Source of the DNA: Sedimenticola sp.
GTDB lineage: Bacteria; Pseudomonadota; Gammaproteobacteria; Chromatiales; Chromatiaceae
Direction of reading: 5' to 3'
DNA: 41,505 nt
NCBI GenBank assembly: GCA_026983675.1
Contig: JALSTP010000155.1
Span: forward strand, 1-41,505
In this document: positions 28,990 through 40,996 of the stretch, piece after piece
Layout: every line of letters starts with the position of its first letter
Position numbering within the stretch: the first letter of the stretch is position 1
Position numbers and translations under genes: made by a program
The notes under the pieces: model-generated
What the model saw: the letters and a program-made list of their open reading frames with translations, nothing else
What the model was told of the DNA's origin: nothing
Databases searched by the model: none

Positions 28990-30411
28990 TTGATTTACGA
29001 GATACCGATGTTAGGTATTAACACAAATGCGAAGGTAGTTGATCACCCGATGATGTTGTTGGTACATCGGCTGTTGGCGCCGGTGGTTACACTGGCGACA
29101 CTGCTGGGTACCCTGTGGTATTACGGTGAGCCCGCTTCGTCGGGCTCCAATGTCGCGTTGGCGGTTATTGCGTTTCTGCTGGCGCTCACCATTTTCGACC
29201 TCCCTGAGAAAAATCAGTGGGGCAGGGTGGTAATGCGTCGACAGGCGTCGGACATCCTGTTTTCCTGGTTGCTCTTCTCTACGGCACTATTACTCGTGGC
29301 ATTATTGACGGACCAATTATTTCGCTATCCACGCAAGATGCTGCTGACGTGGTTTTTTGTGACGCCGTTTGTGCTTATCCTTGTTGAATCGGCGGTCAAT
29401 CAGTTGGCCCTGATGATGATTGTTAGTCGTCCGCCGAGAAAGATTGTGCTGGCGGGCGTTAATGATTTGGGGCGTGCCTTGATCGGACGTATCAACACGG
29501 ACCCGTATCTGAGGATGACTTTCGAGGCCGCATTCGACGACCGGGCTTCTTCCCGTGTAGGGCCTATTGGTGTAGACAAACTCAAAGGGCGCCTGGGTGA
29601 TCTACCGGCCTACGTGAATGCGCACCATATCGACGCCATCTTCGTGACGCTGCCTATGACCCATCAGGATCGTATTCTAAATCTTCTGGATCAGTTACGT
29701 GATACTACCGCCTCGATCTATTTCGTGCCGGATATCTTCGTGTTCGATCTCATTCAGGCGCGGGCAGAGGATGTTGATGGCCTGTTAGCCGTTGCCGTGT
29801 GCGATACTCCGTTCTATGGGGTAAATGCAGTGCTGAAGCGTGGTAGTGATATCGTCATTTCCACCCTCATTCTCACCTTGACGTTTCCCCTCATGATTCT
29901 CATTGCGCTTGGAGTCAAGCTGGGTTCTCCAGGCCCTGCGATATTCAAACAACGGCGCTATGGTGTGGATGGTAAGGAGATCGTGGTCTACAAGTTTCGC
30001 AGTATGAAGGTTTGCGAAGATGGTCAGCAGGTCTATCAAGCCAAGAAAGATGACCCCAGAGTCACACGGTTTGGCGCATTTCTACGTCGCACCTCGCTGG
30101 ACGAACTGCCGCAGTTCATCAACGTGTTGCAAGGGCGCATGAGCGTCGTGGGTCCGAGGCCACATGCAGTCGCCCACAATGAGATGTATCGTAAGCTCGT
30201 CAAGGGATACATGATTCGGCACAAGGTTAAACCCGGTATCACGGGGCTTGCTCAGGTCAATGGCCTGCGTGGAGAGACCGAAACGGTCGAAAAAATGGAA
30301 CAGCGCATTCGATACGATCTCGACTACCTGCGTCACTGGTCCCTTGCGCTGGATTTCAAAATCATTCTGAAAACGTTTCGGGTCGTGTTCAAAGGCAATA
30401 ATGCCTACTGA
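28990..30411 (+). CDS. Undecaprenyl-phosphate sugar phosphotransferase (EPS initiation)
   Basis: A 473-residue polyisoprenyl-phosphate hexose-1-phosphate transferase of the WcaJ/EpsB type. Four N-terminal membrane helices (to about residue 145) are followed by a nucleotide-binding-like domain (KIVLAGVNDLGRALIGRI), another membrane segment at about 288-312 and the catalytic domain with KRGSDIV, KFRSMKV, RRTSLDELPQFINVL and VVGPRPHAVAHN. It loads the first sugar phosphate on the lipid carrier at the inner membrane. The frame opens with TTG at 28990; ATG at 29008 (MLGINTNAK) is an equally good start. It is the first gene of the EPS locus, followed by a 758-base non-coding gap. Confidence 0.92.
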   Translation: MIYEIPMLGINTNAKVVDHPMMLLVHRLLAPVVTLATLLGTLWYYGEPASSGSNVALAVIAFLLALTIFDLPEKNQWGRVVMRRQASDILFSWLLFSTALLLVALLTDQLFRYPRKMLLTWFFVTPFVLILVESAVNQLALMMIVSRPPRKIVLAGVNDLGRALIGRINTDPYLRMTFEAAFDDRASSRVGPIGVDKLKGRLGDLPAYVNAHHIDAIFVTLPMTHQDRILNLLDQLRDTTASIYFVPDIFVFDLIQARAEDVDGLLAVAVCDTPFYGVNAVLKRGSDIVISTLILTLTFPLMILIALGVKLGSPGPAIFKQRRYGVDGKEIVVYKFRSMKVCEDGQQVYQAKKDDPRVTRFGAFLRRTSLDELPQFINVLQGRMSVVGPRPHAVAHNEMYRKLVKGYMIRHKVKPGITGLAQVNGLRGETETVEKMEQRIRYDLDYLRHWSLALDFKIILKTFRVVFKGNNAY

Positions 30412-31169: not shown

Positions 31170-33008
31170 ATGCCAAATACTGCCCTCTCGATGCAACCTC
31201 AACACGATGATGTAGGTGATAGAAAAGAAAGAATGAATGTCGAATATCTGGAGATGGATGAGGAGGTCAGAAGTGTTCATGACTACCTCGATATTGTTAA
31301 GCGCCGCAAGTGGCAGTTTATCGTTCCTGCATTGTTGTTGTTTCTTGTTACTGCCGCCGCAGCATTCCTCCTACCACCGGTTTATCGCTCGACGGCAACT
31401 ATTCTGATCGAGCAACAAGAGATCCCGGAGGATTTGGTCCGCTCCACGGTGACCAGCTTTGCGGATCAACGTATCCAGACTATCAGTAAGCGCGTGATGA
31501 CCAAGTCCAATCTGGCCAAGATCATCAAGAAATATGATCTCTATAAAGAGGAGCGTCGCACGGAAAGCATGGTGAAGGTAGCGGACAAGATGCGCGACGA
31601 CATCAAGCTGGAAATGGTTAGCGCAGATGTTGTGGATCCACGCAGTGGCCGGCCGCGAGAAGCGACCGTTGCCTTCACGCTTTCCTATGAAAATCGTTCT
31701 CCACAGCTAGCGCAACGTGTGGCCAATGAAATCGTTTCGCTGTTCTTGGAGGAGAACTTGCGTGTCCGGCGTGAATCGACGAAGGAAACAGCTAGGTTCC
31801 TTGAAGAGGAAGGACGCAAGCTGAATGAAAAGATATCCGAGCTTGAGGCCAAGTTGGCGAAGTTCAAGGAAAAGAATGCAGGCGCGTTGCCGGAGTATGC
31901 CGCTTTGAACCAGCAGATGTTGACGCGAATGGAAGATGAGGTCTCAAAAATTGATCAGCAGATTCGAAATCTCAAGGACCGCAAGATATATCTCCGTTCA
32001 CAACTTTCGCAACTTGATCCAAACGGTAGTCTCTACTCGGTGGACGGGAAGCGTATCCTCACCCCAGAAGGTCGTCTGAAGGCGCTCCAGGTTCAATATA
32101 TCTCCATGACCACCAAATACGCTAAAGATCATCCGGACATGGTCAAGATCAGGCGCGAGATCAAGGCGCTTAAGAAGGAGATCGGCATCAACGATAACAC
32201 CGGGGAATTACAGACCCAGTTGGAGGCGCAAAAGGCGACGCTGGCGGACTTGCAGAAACGCTATTCGGATGACTACCCGGAAGTGAAGAGGCTGAAAAAG
32301 TCAGTGGCTGCAACGGAATCCATGCTCATAAAGGCGGGCGGCAGGAAGTCGAACCATAAGCCATCGATCCAGCAGGCGAAAAACCCAGCCTATGTTGAGC
32401 TTCAAACACAACTGGAAAGTACCGATGCGGAGCTGCGGTCACTTGAGGCACAACGGACGGACTATAAGCAGCGTATAGCGTCCCTGGAAAAGAAAATGAT
32501 GCGGGCGCCCGAAGTGGAGCGAGAGTACCGGGCACTGACGAGAGACTACGACAACTCCGTGGCGAAATATAAGGAGATCAAAGCGAAGCAGCAGCAGGCT
32601 CGTCTGGCTGAATCCCTCGAAGAAGAGCGCAAAGGAGAGCGTTTTTCCCTGATAGAGCCGCCAGCTCTGCCTGAGGAGCCCGCCAAACCCAATCGGCCGG
32701 CTATCTTGCTGTTGGGTTTTCTGCTTGCATTAGGGGCGGGGGCCGGGCATGTGGCCCTCCGGGAAAGCCTGGATGACACCATACAATCCTCTAAAGAAGC
32801 GGTTGAGTTACTTAGTATTCCTCCCATGGCAGTGGTACCATATATTAATAATGCAGAAGACCGGAAGCGAAGGCATAAGCGGATCTTGATTAAGATTGTG
32901 ATGAGCTTCGTGCTGTTGGGCGTAATCGCTGCCATAATACATTATTTTGTTATGCCCCTTGATGTCCTCTGGTACTATTTGTTGAGAAGAATAGGGGCGA
33001 TGGTATAG
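31170..33008 (+). CDS. Wzz/GNVR-family polysaccharide chain-length determinant
   Basis: A 612-residue polysaccharide co-polymerase of the exosortase-locus type. A Wzz domain starts at about residue 37 (VHDYLDIVKRRKWQFIVPALLLF) with a membrane helix at about 51-70. A long periplasmic coiled-coil region follows (about 200-480) and a second membrane helix at about 510-530. A third hydrophobic helix lies near the C-terminus (IVMSFVLLGVIAAIIHYFVM). Within the coiled coil the motif YAKDHPDMVKIRREIKALKKE recurs as YSDDYPEVKRLKKSVAATE, suggesting an internal duplication that lengthens the protein. It controls export length together with the tyrosine kinase. Start chosen at 31170 because AAGGA precedes it. 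Confidence 0.93.
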   Translation: MPNTALSMQPQHDDVGDRKERMNVEYLEMDEEVRSVHDYLDIVKRRKWQFIVPALLLFLVTAAAAFLLPPVYRSTATILIEQQEIPEDLVRSTVTSFADQRIQTISKRVMTKSNLAKIIKKYDLYKEERRTESMVKVADKMRDDIKLEMVSADVVDPRSGRPREATVAFTLSYENRSPQLAQRVANEIVSLFLEENLRVRRESTKETARFLEEEGRKLNEKISELEAKLAKFKEKNAGALPEYAALNQQMLTRMEDEVSKIDQQIRNLKDRKIYLRSQLSQLDPNGSLYSVDGKRILTPEGRLKALQVQYISMTTKYAKDHPDMVKIRREIKALKKEIGINDNTGELQTQLEAQKATLADLQKRYSDDYPEVKRLKKSVAATESMLIKAGGRKSNHKPSIQQAKNPAYVELQTQLESTDAELRSLEAQRTDYKQRIASLEKKMMRAPEVEREYRALTRDYDNSVAKYKEIKAKQQQARLAESLEEERKGERFSLIEPPALPEEPAKPNRPAILLLGFLLALGAGAGHVALRESLDDTIQSSKEAVELLSIPPMAVVPYINNAEDRKRRHKRILIKIVMSFVLLGVIAAIIHYFVMPLDVLWYYLLRRIGAMV

Positions 33009-33582: not shown

Positions 33583-34419
33583 ATGGAAAAAGTGAAAAAA
33601 GCGCTCGCGAAGGCCCGGGCGGAACGAGATGTGGTTGGCGCCACGAGTTCGCCGCCTAAACAGCGTAAGAAACGCTCGGATAAAAAGGCGCCAGCGGATC
33701 TGAAAATCGTATATACCGAAACGCAAGTTGTCGATGTTGTGCCAGAGTATTGGCAGCATAAGCGTGTCATAGCGGATGCGAGTCTAAATACCCATCAGGC
33801 AGAGGCTTATAAGATTTTGCGTACTCGGGTTTTACAGCGATTACGTGCCAATAACTGGAACGCAATTGGTATTACCAGCCCGACCGAAAATAATGGCAAG
33901 ACCCTTACTGCGGTGAATCTTGCCATCAGTCTTGCGAGGGAGGTCAATCAGACGGTTCTTCTTGTCGATCTTGATCTACGCAGGCCCAATGTGCACACTT
34001 GTTTTGTACCCCGTTCAGTTCCTGGAATCAGTGATTATCTGACGGATGATATGGAACTTAGCGATATATTGTTCAATCCGGGTATCGAGCGTTTGGTCGT
34101 GTTGCCAGGCAACCACTCTTTTGTCCATTCCTCCGAGATGCTTTCCTCTCCAAAGATGGTGTCGCTCGTCGAGGAGCTGAAGAATCGCTATCCATCACGT
34201 ATTATTCTATTCGATTTACCACCCGTGCTTTCATGTGACGATGTTCTTGCGTTTTCGCCGTATATAGATGCAACTTTGCTGATAGTGGAAGAGAGTAAAA
34301 CGACAAAACAAGAGCTGAGACGGGCAGTGGATCTATTGAAGGAAACGGAGCTTTTGGGCTGGGTGCTCAATAAATCCCGTGACGAACGGGAAGGATATGG
34401 GTACTATGGTTACTACTAG
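33583..34419 (+). CDS. Exosortase-locus tyrosine autokinase (BY-kinase)
   Basis: A 278-residue cytoplasmic BY-kinase of the CpsD/EpsG type that phosphorylates its own tyrosine tail and cycles with the chain-length determinant. Walker A is SPTENNGKT (99-107), Walker A' VLLVDLDLRRP (125-135) and Walker B IILFDLPPV at about 205-213. A basic N-terminal region precedes the kinase core. The tyrosine cluster GYGYYGYY forms the very C-terminus, and the TAG stop codon lies within the end of foldback element copy B, so the tail may be shortened by the insertion. Confidence 0.92.
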   Translation: MEKVKKALAKARAERDVVGATSSPPKQRKKRSDKKAPADLKIVYTETQVVDVVPEYWQHKRVIADASLNTHQAEAYKILRTRVLQRLRANNWNAIGITSPTENNGKTLTAVNLAISLAREVNQTVLLVDLDLRRPNVHTCFVPRSVPGISDYLTDDMELSDILFNPGIERLVVLPGNHSFVHSSEMLSSPKMVSLVEELKNRYPSRIILFDLPPVLSCDDVLAFSPYIDATLLIVEESKTTKQELRRAVDLLKETELLGWVLNKSRDEREGYGYYGYY

Positions 34420-34953: not shown

Positions 34954-35844
34954 ATGTACAAACGGTTCTATGGACTGAAAGAAAAACCCTTTACGCTATT
35001 ACCTGATCCACGTTTCTTATATATGGGACACCAGCACAGCGTTGCGTATGCCATGTTGGAATACGGATTGACGAACCAAGCTGGCTTTTCTGTTATTGTA
35101 GGCGATGTGGGATGTGGCAAAACTACCCTCATACGTCACTTGCTCAATGAAGTGGAAAATGGCATTACTGTCGGGCTCATGAGTAGCATGCATAACAGCT
35201 ATGGACGCTTGTTGCAGTGGGTCATGATGGCGTTCGATCAGCCCTATCGTAACAAGAGCGATATCGAGCTTTTCGATGATTTTGTCGACTTCATTATAAG
35301 CGAATATGCACAAGGGCGGCGTACTGTACTGATTGTTGACGAAGCTCAGAATCTTCAGATCAGCACTTTGGAAGAATTGCGTATGCTCTCCAATATCAAT
35401 GCGGACCAGGACCAGGTAATACAGCTCATTCTGGTAGGCCAGCCTCAATTGGGTGACATGCTGAAGCGGCCGGAACTCGAACAGTTTGCGCAGCGCGTGG
35501 CAGTGGACTACTATCTTTCCGCCTTCACAGAAGAGGAAACGGTCGAGTATATCCATCATCGTGTTGTCTGTGCTGGCCAACCCAGTAAGCTTTTTTCCGA
35601 TGTAGCATGTTCGCAGGTCTATCAAGCGAGCCGTGGTACGCCCCGGTTGATCAATATCATTTGTGACACGGCGTTGGTCTATGGTTACGCAGGAAATAAG
35701 GCAGTGATCGACGAAGAGATCATTCAGAATGTGATAGAAGATAAAACACAGACCGGCATTATCCGGCTGACTACGGGCGAGGAAACGGGTATCGCTCGGG
35801 CGGCTGGCCAAGAATCGGCGAGTTTACAGTCATCTCGAACATAG
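34954..35844 (+). CDS. Exosortase-locus secretion ATPase (ExeA-like)
   Basis: A 296-residue AAA ATPase of the family found in exosortase/PEP-CTERM loci. It opens MYKRFYGLKEKPFTLLPDPRFLYMG, a strong family signature. Walker A is GDVGCGKTT (50-58), Walker B VLIVDEAQNL, and RGTPRLINIICD is the conserved C-terminal arginine-containing motif. It resembles ExeA of type II secretion and may energise surface export of the polymer or of sorted proteins. No TM helix is visible. A 300-base gap follows before the exosortase. Confidence 0.92.
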   Translation: MYKRFYGLKEKPFTLLPDPRFLYMGHQHSVAYAMLEYGLTNQAGFSVIVGDVGCGKTTLIRHLLNEVENGITVGLMSSMHNSYGRLLQWVMMAFDQPYRNKSDIELFDDFVDFIISEYAQGRRTVLIVDEAQNLQISTLEELRMLSNINADQDQVIQLILVGQPQLGDMLKRPELEQFAQRVAVDYYLSAFTEEETVEYIHHRVVCAGQPSKLFSDVACSQVYQASRGTPRLINIICDTALVYGYAGNKAVIDEEIIQNVIEDKTQTGIIRLTTGEETGIARAAGQESASLQSSRT

Positions 35845-36144: not shown

Positions 36145-37719
36145 ATGAGCCTTCCATACGATGCAGTAATCCACAAATACAACCGAACCGCGTGGCTGGT
36201 ATTGGCGCTGCTGGGATCGATTGGCGCCTTTGTTTTCACGGATGCCCTGGGTTCAATGTTGGCGAGTTGGAGGAGCGCAGAATACAGTCACGGTTACCTG
36301 TTGCCAGTATTGACGCTCTATTTTATTTGGCAGAAACGCATTCGACTGTCATTGTTGCCCAATCAATGGGGCTGGGGTGGGCTTGCACTGGCCATGGCCG
36401 GTATTTTACTACGTTTTGCCGGTGAATTGGGTTCTCTTTACATCGTAGAGCAATATGCGGTTTTGATATTTATTTACGGGGTTGTCCTGGCGTTTGTTGG
36501 TTGGCCACGTTTCAAATTGATATTTCCAGCGTTGCTGCTTTTGTTGTTCGCAGTGCCGTTACCTTCTTTTTTATTCAATAACTTGTCTCAATCGCTTCAA
36601 TTGATTTCCTCGGAGATTGGGGTGCAGGTGATTCGCTTGTTTGGCGTCAGCGTGTTTCTGGAAGGCAATGTTATCGACCTTGGGAATTTCAAGTTGCAGG
36701 TGGTGGATGCGTGCAGCGGGTTACGGTACCTCTTTCCGTTGATGGCGCTGGGCTATATTGCAGCCTATATGTTTAAGGGCGCGTGGTGGAAACGGGCGCT
36801 GATTTTTCTGTCGACCATTCCGATCACGGTGTTGATGAACAGTTTTCGTATCGGTGTGATTGGGGTGATGGTGGATCGTTGGGGGCAGGCAATGGCCGAA
36901 GGGTTCCTGCACGATTTTGAGGGCTGGATCATTTTTATGGCCTGTGCAGGTGTATTGATTGCAGAAATGTGGGGGCTCGCACGTATCGGGCCGCACAAGA
37001 TGGCATTATCGGAAGCGTTTGGTCTAGAGGTGACGGCACAGTTCCCGAAAAGCGCCAGGGTACGCCGGTACCCAACGCCTGGTCCCTTGTGGGCCACGCT
37101 CGTGGTGACGGGGCTGGCCCTTGGAATGACGCAGGTAATGGGACACCGGCACGAGATTGCGCCGGTTGTGAAAAGTTACGCTACCTTCCCGATGCGGGTG
37201 GGACACTGGAGGGGAAAACCGGATCATCTGGATAAGATTTATACGGATGCACTAAAACTGGATGATTATGTGCTTGCCGACTATGTGGACGATGAAGGCG
37301 TAGCGGTGAATCTGTATGTCGCTTGGTATGCCACGCAACGGAAGGGAGCCTCGGTGCATTCACCACGATCATGTCTCCCGGGAGGGGGATGGGTGATAGA
37401 ATCGCTTACCCAGCGAACTTTTGATGATATCCGGGTGGCGGGAGAGCCCCTCAGGGTGAATCGGACTGTCATTCAGCAGGGTGATGTGAAGGATTTGGTT
37501 TACTATTGGTTCCAACAGCGTGGGCGGGTAATTACGAATGAGTATCTCGTCAAGCTTTTTCTGTTTTGGGATGCGATAACAAAAAACAGGACCGACGGGA
37601 CGTTGGTGAGGTTGACGGCATCGATTCCGGTGGGGAAGGACGTGGCAGAGGTGGATCGGGTATTGGTCCGGTTCGCCCGGGATATAGCGCCTGTTTTAGA
37701 CCAGTTTATTCCGAGATGA
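36145..37719 (+). CDS. xrtD: Exosortase fused to EpsI domain (XrtD-like, VPLPA type)
   Basis: A 524-residue inner-membrane transpeptidase. The N-terminal exosortase half (about 1-285) has eight or so membrane helices and the catalytic triad Cys190 (DACSGLRYL), Arg235 (NSFRIG) and His256 (HDFEGW). The C-terminal half (about 320-524) is an EpsI domain, with GHWRG, YVAWYATQRKG and SPRSCLPGGGW. Exosortases cut proteins at a C-terminal PEP-CTERM-like signal and attach them to the surface polymer. The fused architecture and VPLPSFLFNNLSQ segment fit XrtD, whose known targets carry VPLPA-type tails; a protein of this kind lies at 40343-40996. The XrtD label is from memory of family traits, not from a search. 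No strong ribosome binding site is seen. Confidence 0.88.
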   Translation: MSLPYDAVIHKYNRTAWLVLALLGSIGAFVFTDALGSMLASWRSAEYSHGYLLPVLTLYFIWQKRIRLSLLPNQWGWGGLALAMAGILLRFAGELGSLYIVEQYAVLIFIYGVVLAFVGWPRFKLIFPALLLLLFAVPLPSFLFNNLSQSLQLISSEIGVQVIRLFGVSVFLEGNVIDLGNFKLQVVDACSGLRYLFPLMALGYIAAYMFKGAWWKRALIFLSTIPITVLMNSFRIGVIGVMVDRWGQAMAEGFLHDFEGWIIFMACAGVLIAEMWGLARIGPHKMALSEAFGLEVTAQFPKSARVRRYPTPGPLWATLVVTGLALGMTQVMGHRHEIAPVVKSYATFPMRVGHWRGKPDHLDKIYTDALKLDDYVLADYVDDEGVAVNLYVAWYATQRKGASVHSPRSCLPGGGWVIESLTQRTFDDIRVAGEPLRVNRTVIQQGDVKDLVYYWFQQRGRVITNEYLVKLFLFWDAITKNRTDGTLVRLTASIPVGKDVAEVDRVLVRFARDIAPVLDQFIPR

Positions 37720-37879
37720 GGAGTAAACATTTGGCGCCGATCGCGGGCTTATGAGACCACGTTATGAGTCAGTGTGACTTGAGAGGAGGCGGCGGAGATT
37801 TGGAACGTGGATTGCTGCTTACATAGAGCCGCATGGGGTTCTTTGTGAGTCGTCTCCAGCTCATCGCCTATATTTTAAA

Positions 37880-39520
37880 GTGACGCGGATTACTGCGATC
37901 TATACATTTGTTTTGGCGTTGTTTGTTTCCACTGCCATGGTCCCTGTTCTCGTCCGGATTGCGGGTTTTTTGCGGATGGTGGATATCCCGGCTCCACGCA
38001 AGGTGCATCAGGCGCCCATCCCCCGCGTGGGGGGGATAGCCATTATTGCGGGTGCATTGCTTCCCCTTTTTATGTGGATGCCAACCAATCCGCAAGTCGA
38101 TGCTTATCTGGCAGGCGCGCTGCTGTTGGCGTTCTTTGGCGTTCTTGACGATCGCTTCGATCTTGATTATCGATTGAAATTCCTGGGGCAATTCATTGTT
38201 GCTATTATCGTCATAGCTTATGGTGACTTGGTGATTCGGCGCATCCCGTTTCTGGATGACGGCGTATTGTTGTCTGATGTTTTTGCTGTTCCTTTGACCA
38301 TTTTTTTTATCATTGGTGTGACCAACGCGATTAATCTCGCGGACGGCTTGGACGGGCTGGCGGGTGGGACGAGTTTGATCGCCATCGGTACGGCAGGATT
38401 GCTGGCATATCGTTCTGGGGAGATGGCTCTAGTCATTGTCGCGTTGTCAATCGTAGGGGCGACGTTAGGTTTTTTGCGCTACAACACCCATCCTGCAAGC
38501 GTCTTCATGGGGGACTCAGGAAGCCAATTTCTGGGGTTCAGCGCTGCGGTATTAATGATACCGGTTGCCGGGACACCTGATTGTGTCATAAGTCCCGTGG
38601 TGCCACTGCTCGTTCTCGGTGTCCCGATCTTTGATACGTTGGCAGTCATGGTACGTCGAATCCTAGACAAACGTTCGCCTTTTTCTCCAGATCGGGCACA
38701 TATTCACCATAAATTGCTCGATCGTGGTTTCAGTCAATACGAGGCAGTTGTATTAATTTATGGCGCACAGTTGCTCCTGGCACTCGTAGCCTTAATGTAT
38801 CCCTATGCGGCTGATGGCGTATTGTTGGGTTTCTATATTGCCTTTGTGATCAGCAGCATTACCATTCTAAGGATGGCGCGGAAATTTCAGTGGAATTCCC
38901 TAGGATGGCATGGTGAAGGGTCTCCGGTGAATACCCTCGTGGGCTATATGCGCCGTACCAGGGTATTGGCGCGATTGACGTATTCTTTGCTCCTCGTATT
39001 CGTCCCTGCATATCTTGTAGGTGGAGCAATCCTTGCTCATGCTATCGATAGAGATTTTGGATTGTCTGCCTTATTGGGATTTCTGTTGCTGGTGTTCGCG
39101 ATGCTCAGTCGCCGCGTGTCTGTGGTATATGCGTTGCGTCCAGTTGCATTTCTGGCGGCGACGTTTATCCCTTATCTAGTGGAGTCTAGTCTTTCTGATA
39201 CGGGGTATCTCATTATCGGTCTGCACGTATTTTTTGCGGGTGTGGCGATCCTGGTGGCGGTCTTGGTTCGTCTGGGCGGCGCTAGACCTGGTTTTAAGGC
39301 CAATACGCTGGATTACCTGGTTGTAGGTATCGCCTTTATTGTTCCAAATCTCTTGAACTACCAGTTAGGCGGTAAAATGCTTGGGGCCGTGGTGGTCGAA
39401 GCAGTCATCCTGTTCTATGCGATAGAGATCTTGCTATCGACAAAAAAAAATCACTGTAAACCATTGGTCTATGGTGTGCTTGCCTCACTGGGGATAGTAG
39501 CGCTGCGAGGTTTTCTGTAG
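37880..39520 (+). CDS. WecA-like GT4 polyprenyl-phosphate sugar transferase
   Basis: A 546-residue multi-span membrane protein of the WecA/MraY family that transfers a sugar-1-phosphate (likely a HexNAc) to undecaprenyl phosphate. Metal-binding Asp pair D90-D91 lies in GVLDDRFDLDYRLKF, NAINLADGLDGLAGG spans residues 149-163, FMGDSGSQFLGF follows, and HIHH (274-277) is the conserved His motif. It is longer than WecA; the C-terminal third (about 340-546) is a set of extra membrane helices of unknown role, seen in some EPS-linked members. Translation begins at GTG 37880. The locus already has one initiating transferase, so two priming enzymes coexist. The 160-base gap before it holds nothing recognised. 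Confidence 0.92.
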   Translation: MTRITAIYTFVLALFVSTAMVPVLVRIAGFLRMVDIPAPRKVHQAPIPRVGGIAIIAGALLPLFMWMPTNPQVDAYLAGALLLAFFGVLDDRFDLDYRLKFLGQFIVAIIVIAYGDLVIRRIPFLDDGVLLSDVFAVPLTIFFIIGVTNAINLADGLDGLAGGTSLIAIGTAGLLAYRSGEMALVIVALSIVGATLGFLRYNTHPASVFMGDSGSQFLGFSAAVLMIPVAGTPDCVISPVVPLLVLGVPIFDTLAVMVRRILDKRSPFSPDRAHIHHKLLDRGFSQYEAVVLIYGAQLLLALVALMYPYAADGVLLGFYIAFVISSITILRMARKFQWNSLGWHGEGSPVNTLVGYMRRTRVLARLTYSLLLVFVPAYLVGGAILAHAIDRDFGLSALLGFLLLVFAMLSRRVSVVYALRPVAFLAATFIPYLVESSLSDTGYLIIGLHVFFAGVAILVAVLVRLGGARPGFKANTLDYLVVGIAFIVPNLLNYQLGGKMLGAVVVEAVILFYAIEILLSTKKNHCKPLVYGVLASLGIVALRGFL

Positions 39521-39691
39521 ATCTCATTGCTTTATTTCCGTAACCGTTCAAACCACACCGTTCTTCCGTAAGCGCCCACGAATCGACACCTGTTTCCTGC
39601 CCCTCACCTGCTCCAGAGTTTCTCCTGTTTTATCACAACGCAGGAGGACGTCATGAGCTATAGTTGTCAAATCTGGTGTACAGGCTCTTGA

Positions 39692-39859
39692 TCAGGCTGC
39701 GTCCGTGTCTTCCTCGTCGTCGGCGTTCACTTCAACTCCATCCTGGAACTTTACTCCCTCGATAACCTTCGCGAGGTGTGCGAACCCTCTGAGCTTTCTC
39801 CAGCGCTTTTCGGCGCACATCCCCAGCTTGTAGATCATTGTCAATATCGTGGTAAGCGA
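39692..39859 (-). pseudogene. IS256-family transposase C-terminal remnant
   Basis: The minus strand encodes a fragment of about 55 residues, SLTTILTMIYKLG followed by AEKRWRKLRGFAHLAKVIEG and KFQDGVE, then an acidic tail and stop. This order (LxMxxKLxxxAEKxWRxLxG then VIEGVxFxDG) is characteristic of the C-terminus of IS256-type transposases. An in-frame TGA at 39860-39862 cuts it off upstream, and no catalytic domain is present. Confidence 0.7.
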
Positions 39860-39933
39860 TCATTCCAGACCGTTCTTCCCAAGCAGCAAGTTGCCCCCTA
39901 ATCTGCTCCTGTACTCACCAACAGGAGCTCATC

Positions 39934-40052
39934 ATGACTACACGACGCCCCCGCGCTCAATGGGAAGCATTTGGTACAAGAACAGGCCAAAAGCGGCCTG
40001 AGCCAGACCCCCTCTGTCAGGATAGATGTCGCCTCCCTGATGTGGGACTCTA
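39934..40052 (+). pseudogene. IS66 TnpA-like accessory protein remnant
   Basis: After an AGGAG, a frame begins MTTRRPRAQWEAF; with one base skipped at about 39973 it continues VQEQAKSGLSQT, then another frame change gives FCQD-like residues before a stop. The pattern (R-x-QWEAxxxEQAxSGLSQxxFC) recalls the N-terminus of IS66-element TnpA/OrfA proteins. Two frameshifts make it non-functional. Assignment is by pattern only. Confidence 0.5.
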
Positions 40053-40342
40053 ATAGACCGGCGGAACGAGGGGCAACCCATCACCACCTGGCAGGCGTCG
40101 AATCTAACACAGAATGATTTGCCTATGGACAGCGGCGGAAATTGTGATATACTTCACAATAATTACGAAGTGGAGTAGTATAGTTGAGGGTGACAATAGT
40201 GGGTTGTCGAAAGGGCGTCGCCATAAGTTGTGAACCCCGTGTAGCATGATTTTAAGTCTCCGTCTAGTGAGGGCTGTGTGCTGGAGGATGGGGCTTCGCT
40301 CCAAGTAATTCAAAGAAACGGGAATTTCAAGGAGAAAAGGGC

Positions 40343-40996
40343 ATGAAGGTAGGTGTGATTGAGGCAGTTATAGCGGCAGTGGGATTGGTTTTTTCAGGGG
40401 TTGCGTCAGCTAGTGCGGTGACGTATGCCTTTGTAAATGAGGGGGTTTTTGAGCATGACAGTAGTAGGGTGAAATTCGTCGGGGAGACCGTTCCGGGCGC
40501 CTATTCGGAAAGTCGGCAACCGTCGAAGGATAAGATTGCTAATGGGTACTATACAAGTTACTTCCTGGCTGCTGACGCAACCGGAACCGGCAGTCCTCAT
40601 AGCGATACCAAGACCTATACGTTCTCAAATGACATCGTTGCGGTGGTTTGGAATCGTGTTCTCTTAAGCCAATTGGACGCGGAGATCGGCCCCCACCTTT
40701 ACTCGGGGCAGAACCGACATGGGTTGGAGGGGCTCGATCTATCCCACCACGGTACCGGGCTTGGAAATATCCAGAATGATGCGTTTACGTTCGGGGCGGA
40801 TGGTCTTGCGCGCAATCAGATTAGGGTTGACTACAATCGGTTTGATTTGAATGTCGACGCGTTGCGCGTGCTGACCTCTCCTGTCCCGTTGCCTCCAGCG
40901 TTGCTCCTTTTCGGGTCAGCGCTGGTTGGGGTTCTTGTGGTTCCTCGTAGGAGAAAAAGTCAGCATCAGCAGGGGAGCACCGCTGTAACCGCGTGA
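40343..40996 (+). CDS. Secreted protein with VPLP-type PEP-CTERM sorting tail
   Basis: A 217-residue secreted protein with a signal peptide (about 1-25, ending SASA) and a C-terminal tripartite sorting signal: VPLPP at 181-185, a hydrophobic helix ALLLFGSALVGVLVV and the basic cluster RRRK. An unusual 12-residue hydrophilic tail SQHQQGSTAVTA follows the cluster, while most such proteins end soon after it. The middle is rich in Asp, Asn and Tyr and matches no domain I recognise. It is a likely substrate of the exosortase encoded 2.6 kb upstream. The ribosome binding site AAGGAG is good. Confidence 0.85.
   Translation: MKVGVIEAVIAAVGLVFSGVASASAVTYAFVNEGVFEHDSSRVKFVGETVPGAYSESRQPSKDKIANGYYTSYFLAADATGTGSPHSDTKTYTFSNDIVAVVWNRVLLSQLDAEIGPHLYSGQNRHGLEGLDLSHHGTGLGNIQNDAFTFGADGLARNQIRVDYNRFDLNVDALRVLTSPVPLPPALLLFGSALVGVLVVPRRRKSQHQQGSTAVTA

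Follow-up and report, generated by a model that had tools for sequence, protein, structure and literature searches.

The window, i.e. the whole stretch of Sedimenticola sp. DNA that was analyzed, comprises 41,505 nucleotides (contig JALSTP010000155.1). An exosortase gene is located here among genes for exopolysaccharide (EPS) production. The features of concern are:

28990-30411, + strand: undecaprenyl-phosphate glucose phosphotransferase of the WcaJ type, EPS initiation (TIGR03023, 504 bits, above the cut-off of 410.75)
31170-33008, + strand: polysaccharide chain-length determinant (TIGR03007, 307.6 bits, above the cut-off of 278.85)
33583-34419, + strand: exosortase-locus tyrosine autokinase, TIGR03018-like (182.6 bits, below the cut-off of 230.65)
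34954-35844, + strand: exosortase-locus ATPase, TIGR03015-like (274 bits, below the cut-off of 324.5)
36145-37719, + strand: xrtD, exosortase with fused EpsI/DUF3485 domain (TIGR04152, PF09721, PF11984/TIGR02914)
37880-39520, + strand: WecA/MraY-like polyprenyl-phosphate sugar-phosphate transferase (PF00953, 137 bits; TIGR02380, 200 bits, below cut-off)
40343-40996, + strand: candidate XrtD substrate with signal-like N terminus, orphan body and VPLPP-type tail (translation, leave-out profiles)
40883-40957, + strand: sorting tail of the candidate substrate with VPLPP motif, hydrophobic helix and RRRK (match to profile A1, leave-out profiles)
40958-40993, + strand: hydrophilic C-terminal extension SQHQQGSTAVTA, 12 residues (translation)

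The set upstream of xrtD, i.e. WcaJ-type initiator, chain-length determinant, autokinase-like and ATPase-like proteins, is typical of an exosortase-linked EPS locus. The wecA-like gene lies directly downstream of xrtD, the candidate substrate two genes downstream. Together with the WcaJ-type enzyme, the WecA-like protein is the second possible initiating transferase of the locus; roughly 200 of its residues are outside the conserved domain. Upstream of the candidate substrate gene about 0.8 kb (39540-40340) are devoid of a long ORF. Short pieces of this gap recur at three other sites of the genome with 72-100% identity and are possibly intergenic repeats or insertion-sequence remnants. The count of sigma-54 promoter sites in the window did not exceed chance expectation, and this gap had none. 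Known RNA families were not detected in the window.

The xrtD ORF codes for 524 amino acids. An 8-TM EpsH domain covers residues 28-277 (PF09721, 234.6 bits), followed by an EpsI/DUF3485 domain at residues 319-522 (PF11984, 202.2 bits; TIGR02914, 147.7 bits). The triad consists of C190, R235 and H256; in an alignment that combined 23 XrtD homologues with 4 outgroup exosortases, it was the same throughout. Thus, the fused exosortase with intact triad described in an earlier note on this DNA was confirmed in its domains and residues. The same note had proposed a profile search with exosortase subfamily models. The best match was TIGR04152, the VPLPA-CTERM-specific exosortase XrtD, with 570.8 bits at a cut-off of 400. 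The match was full-length (protein residues 38-523 versus model positions 1-486 of 486). The next subfamily model, XrtW, reached 303.6 bits, which is under its own cut-off. Neither XrtW nor XrtA, XrtV or any other named exosortase type exceeded its own cut-off, i.e. a subfamily with a different motif did not emerge. Judged by its sequence, the exosortase of the locus is a member of the VPLPA-specific subfamily XrtD. It shares with the model the full-length match above cut-off, the fused EpsI domain and the triad, and no notable difference was seen. The fusion with EpsI is nothing special because the TIGR04152 model itself covers the EpsH and the EpsI domain, and fused EpsH-EpsI proteins were reported already in 2006 (PMC1569441). 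In a genome-wide search XrtD was the only exosortase match; a second one was not found. Among the papers available for searching, none was dedicated to XrtD or VPLPA-CTERM. In the EpsI part, H405 and C410 are invariant in the 23 XrtD proteins and absent from the 4 outgroup fused exosortases. Possibly, these residues mark a second functional site.

The candidate substrate has 217 amino acids. The translation shows a hydrophobic stretch at the N terminus which, judged by eye, resembles a signal peptide, a body of about 155 residues, and a C terminus that reads VPLPPALLLFGSALVGVLVV-PRRRK-SQHQQGSTAVTA. The very end is VPLPPALLLFGSALVGVLVVPRRRK, then SQHQQGSTAVTA. The order in the tail is VPLPP, hydrophobic helix, RRRK and 12 more residues, exactly as the earlier note had described it. 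Thus motif, helix and basic cluster near the C terminus as well as an N-terminal signal are all present. One profile was built without this tail and another one without any tail of this genome. Both still scored it at 33-36 bits (i-Evalues 6e-8 and 9e-9, Z = 30000), and the latter matched along the whole length. Therefore, the likeness goes beyond coincidence, and the earlier proposal of a likely substrate is supported. The curated VPLPA-CTERM model TIGR03370 (cut-off 25.35 bits) did not list the tail even at E ≤ 10, i.e. it was recognized by the profiles built in this analysis and not by TIGR03370. Consequently, it is filed as a VPLP-type tail and not as a TIGR03370 member. In both, the VPLP motif is followed by a hydrophobic helix and then by a basic cluster at the C terminus; the TIGR03370 domain has Ala after VPLP, whereas the tail discussed here has Pro. 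The C-terminal part of the model for PepA, a flocculation-associated PEP-CTERM protein (NF033554), matched residues 160-205 with 24.4 bits (E 2e-5). This likeness is restricted to the sorting region; the body had no match and the score is far under the cut-off of 80.

The body is an orphan. No Pfam family and no relative among PDB sequences was found, and none of the other collected tailed proteins was related to it. A whole-protein search in 92 genomes yielded no convincing homologue of the body; the hits lay either entirely or predominantly in the tail region. Without any known domain or relative of the body, a conserved association between this protein and XrtD cannot be demonstrated. Structure prediction from the single sequence gave no usable model (mean pLDDT 36). 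One relative (G012) likewise has xrtD followed by a wecA-like gene and then a gene with a VPLPP tail. The tailed gene was considered as an ortholog of the candidate substrate and rejected as the bodies are unrelated. Taken together, the protein is a plausible XrtD substrate with an orphan body, as far as can be read from its tail and N terminus.

Does the enzyme have other clients in this genome? The genome-wide scan suggested earlier for VPLP-type tails uncovered seven strong ones with the tail profile (E from 1e-12 to 6e-8) plus some weak matches. Four of the strong tails are VPLPP, including that of the candidate substrate, and three are VPLPA. One tail of the genome is over the TIGR03370 cut-off. 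The bodies are mostly unrelated, e.g. a Spherulin4 protein, two GH16 glycosidases and a matrixin-like peptidase with a score slightly above its cut-off. The two GH16 genes are neighbors on one 3 kb contig and both are VPLPP-tailed. One sorting enzyme and several unrelated secreted candidate substrates are the usual picture.

Enzyme and tails were compared across 96 genomes from the family, of which 22 have XrtD over cut-off and 74 do not. By profile A1, at a threshold of E ≤ 1e-4 and with tails from some of the tested genomes included in the profile, tails were present in 22/22 XrtD genomes versus 5/74 others (Fisher p = 3e-17). The independent curated TIGR03370, over cut-off, gave 15/22 versus 7/74 genomes (p = 1e-7); both p values ignore phylogeny and the tested genomes are related. 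VPLP-type tails thus track XrtD across the genomes of the family. This bears on the possibility that the 40343-40996 product is simply an inner-membrane protein with a C-terminal anchor rather than a substrate. Its orphan body would fit, as would the intergenic sequence which separates its gene from the xrtD-wecA pair. However, the match along the whole tail to a VPLP profile made without this genome's tails speaks against it, as does the co-occurrence of such tails with XrtD. We consider it quite unlikely.

The earlier note had taken the Pro in place of Ala and the 12-residue extension as unusual features which may define a substrate variant. Neither point held up. The fifth residue in 101 VP[LIV]P-type tails was Ala in 74, Pro in 16 and Gly in 7, fractions that are rough since the collecting profile included VPLPP tails, and most of the set came from the taxonomic family to which the window's genome belongs. 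In 34 further tails of a wider sample Ala was found 31 times and Pro three times. In the genome itself Pro is at this position in 4/7 strong tails. Behind the first basic cluster the tails continued for a median of 4 and a maximum of 27 residues; at least 12 were counted in 11/106 tails. Two other tails of the genome have longer extensions, 18 and 13 residues. Within the family, Pro at position 5 and long extensions each occur repeatedly, for the most part not on the same tail. Both are minority variants, yet ordinary ones, and probably tolerated. Pro was also tried as a marker of genomes in which the wecA-like gene adjoins xrtD. In the family the numbers were 13/30 with adjacency versus 4/72 (post hoc p = 1.4e-5). 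The correlation failed in the wider sample because there, with tails mostly from genomes that have this adjacency, Ala dominated 31 to 3. That VPLPP tails with a hydrophilic extension are a distinct substrate class, handled unlike VPLPA tails, as the missing TIGR03370 listing and the apparent family enrichment might have suggested, is thus highly improbable: the genome has one detectable exosortase for tails of either kind, the two features usually do not travel together and the enrichment was gone in the wider sample.

Very probably, then, we are dealing with an ordinary XrtD (VPLPA-CTERM) exosortase system within an exopolysaccharide locus, with the 40343-40996 protein as a plausible substrate. 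The observations behind this are the enzyme subfamily, the triad, the tail architecture, further proteins of the genome with like tails, and the co-occurrence of XrtD and tails. Based on knowledge of the PEP-CTERM/exosortase system, the protein would be made as a precursor and its signal peptide would carry it through the inner membrane. VPLPP motif, helix and RRRK would hold the precursor in this membrane. XrtD, the genome's only exosortase found, would cut near the VPLP motif via Cys190 and hand the protein over to an acceptor that is on the surface or linked to EPS. Export, cleavage, transfer and final location, and the substrate role of this particular protein, are inferred by analogy.

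With this locus, a known sorting system gains one more example. The locus also indicates that the VPLPA-CTERM model in its present form misses some likely XrtD substrates, as Pro at position 5 and extensions are normal there. To our knowledge, the acceptor of exosortases is not established. A wecA-like gene adjoins xrtD in 5/22 XrtD genomes of the family, in 23/29 XrtD genomes of the wider class and in a metagenome-assembled genome. Conceivably, though this is a long shot, the WecA-like neighbor makes a polyprenyl-linked glycan onto which XrtD transfers its substrates. If so, the xrtD-wecA pair would code for a transpeptidase together with the first step towards its acceptor. The frequent adjacency of the two genes offers a clue to this acceptor that can be put to the test, and is the one lead here that deserves pursuit.
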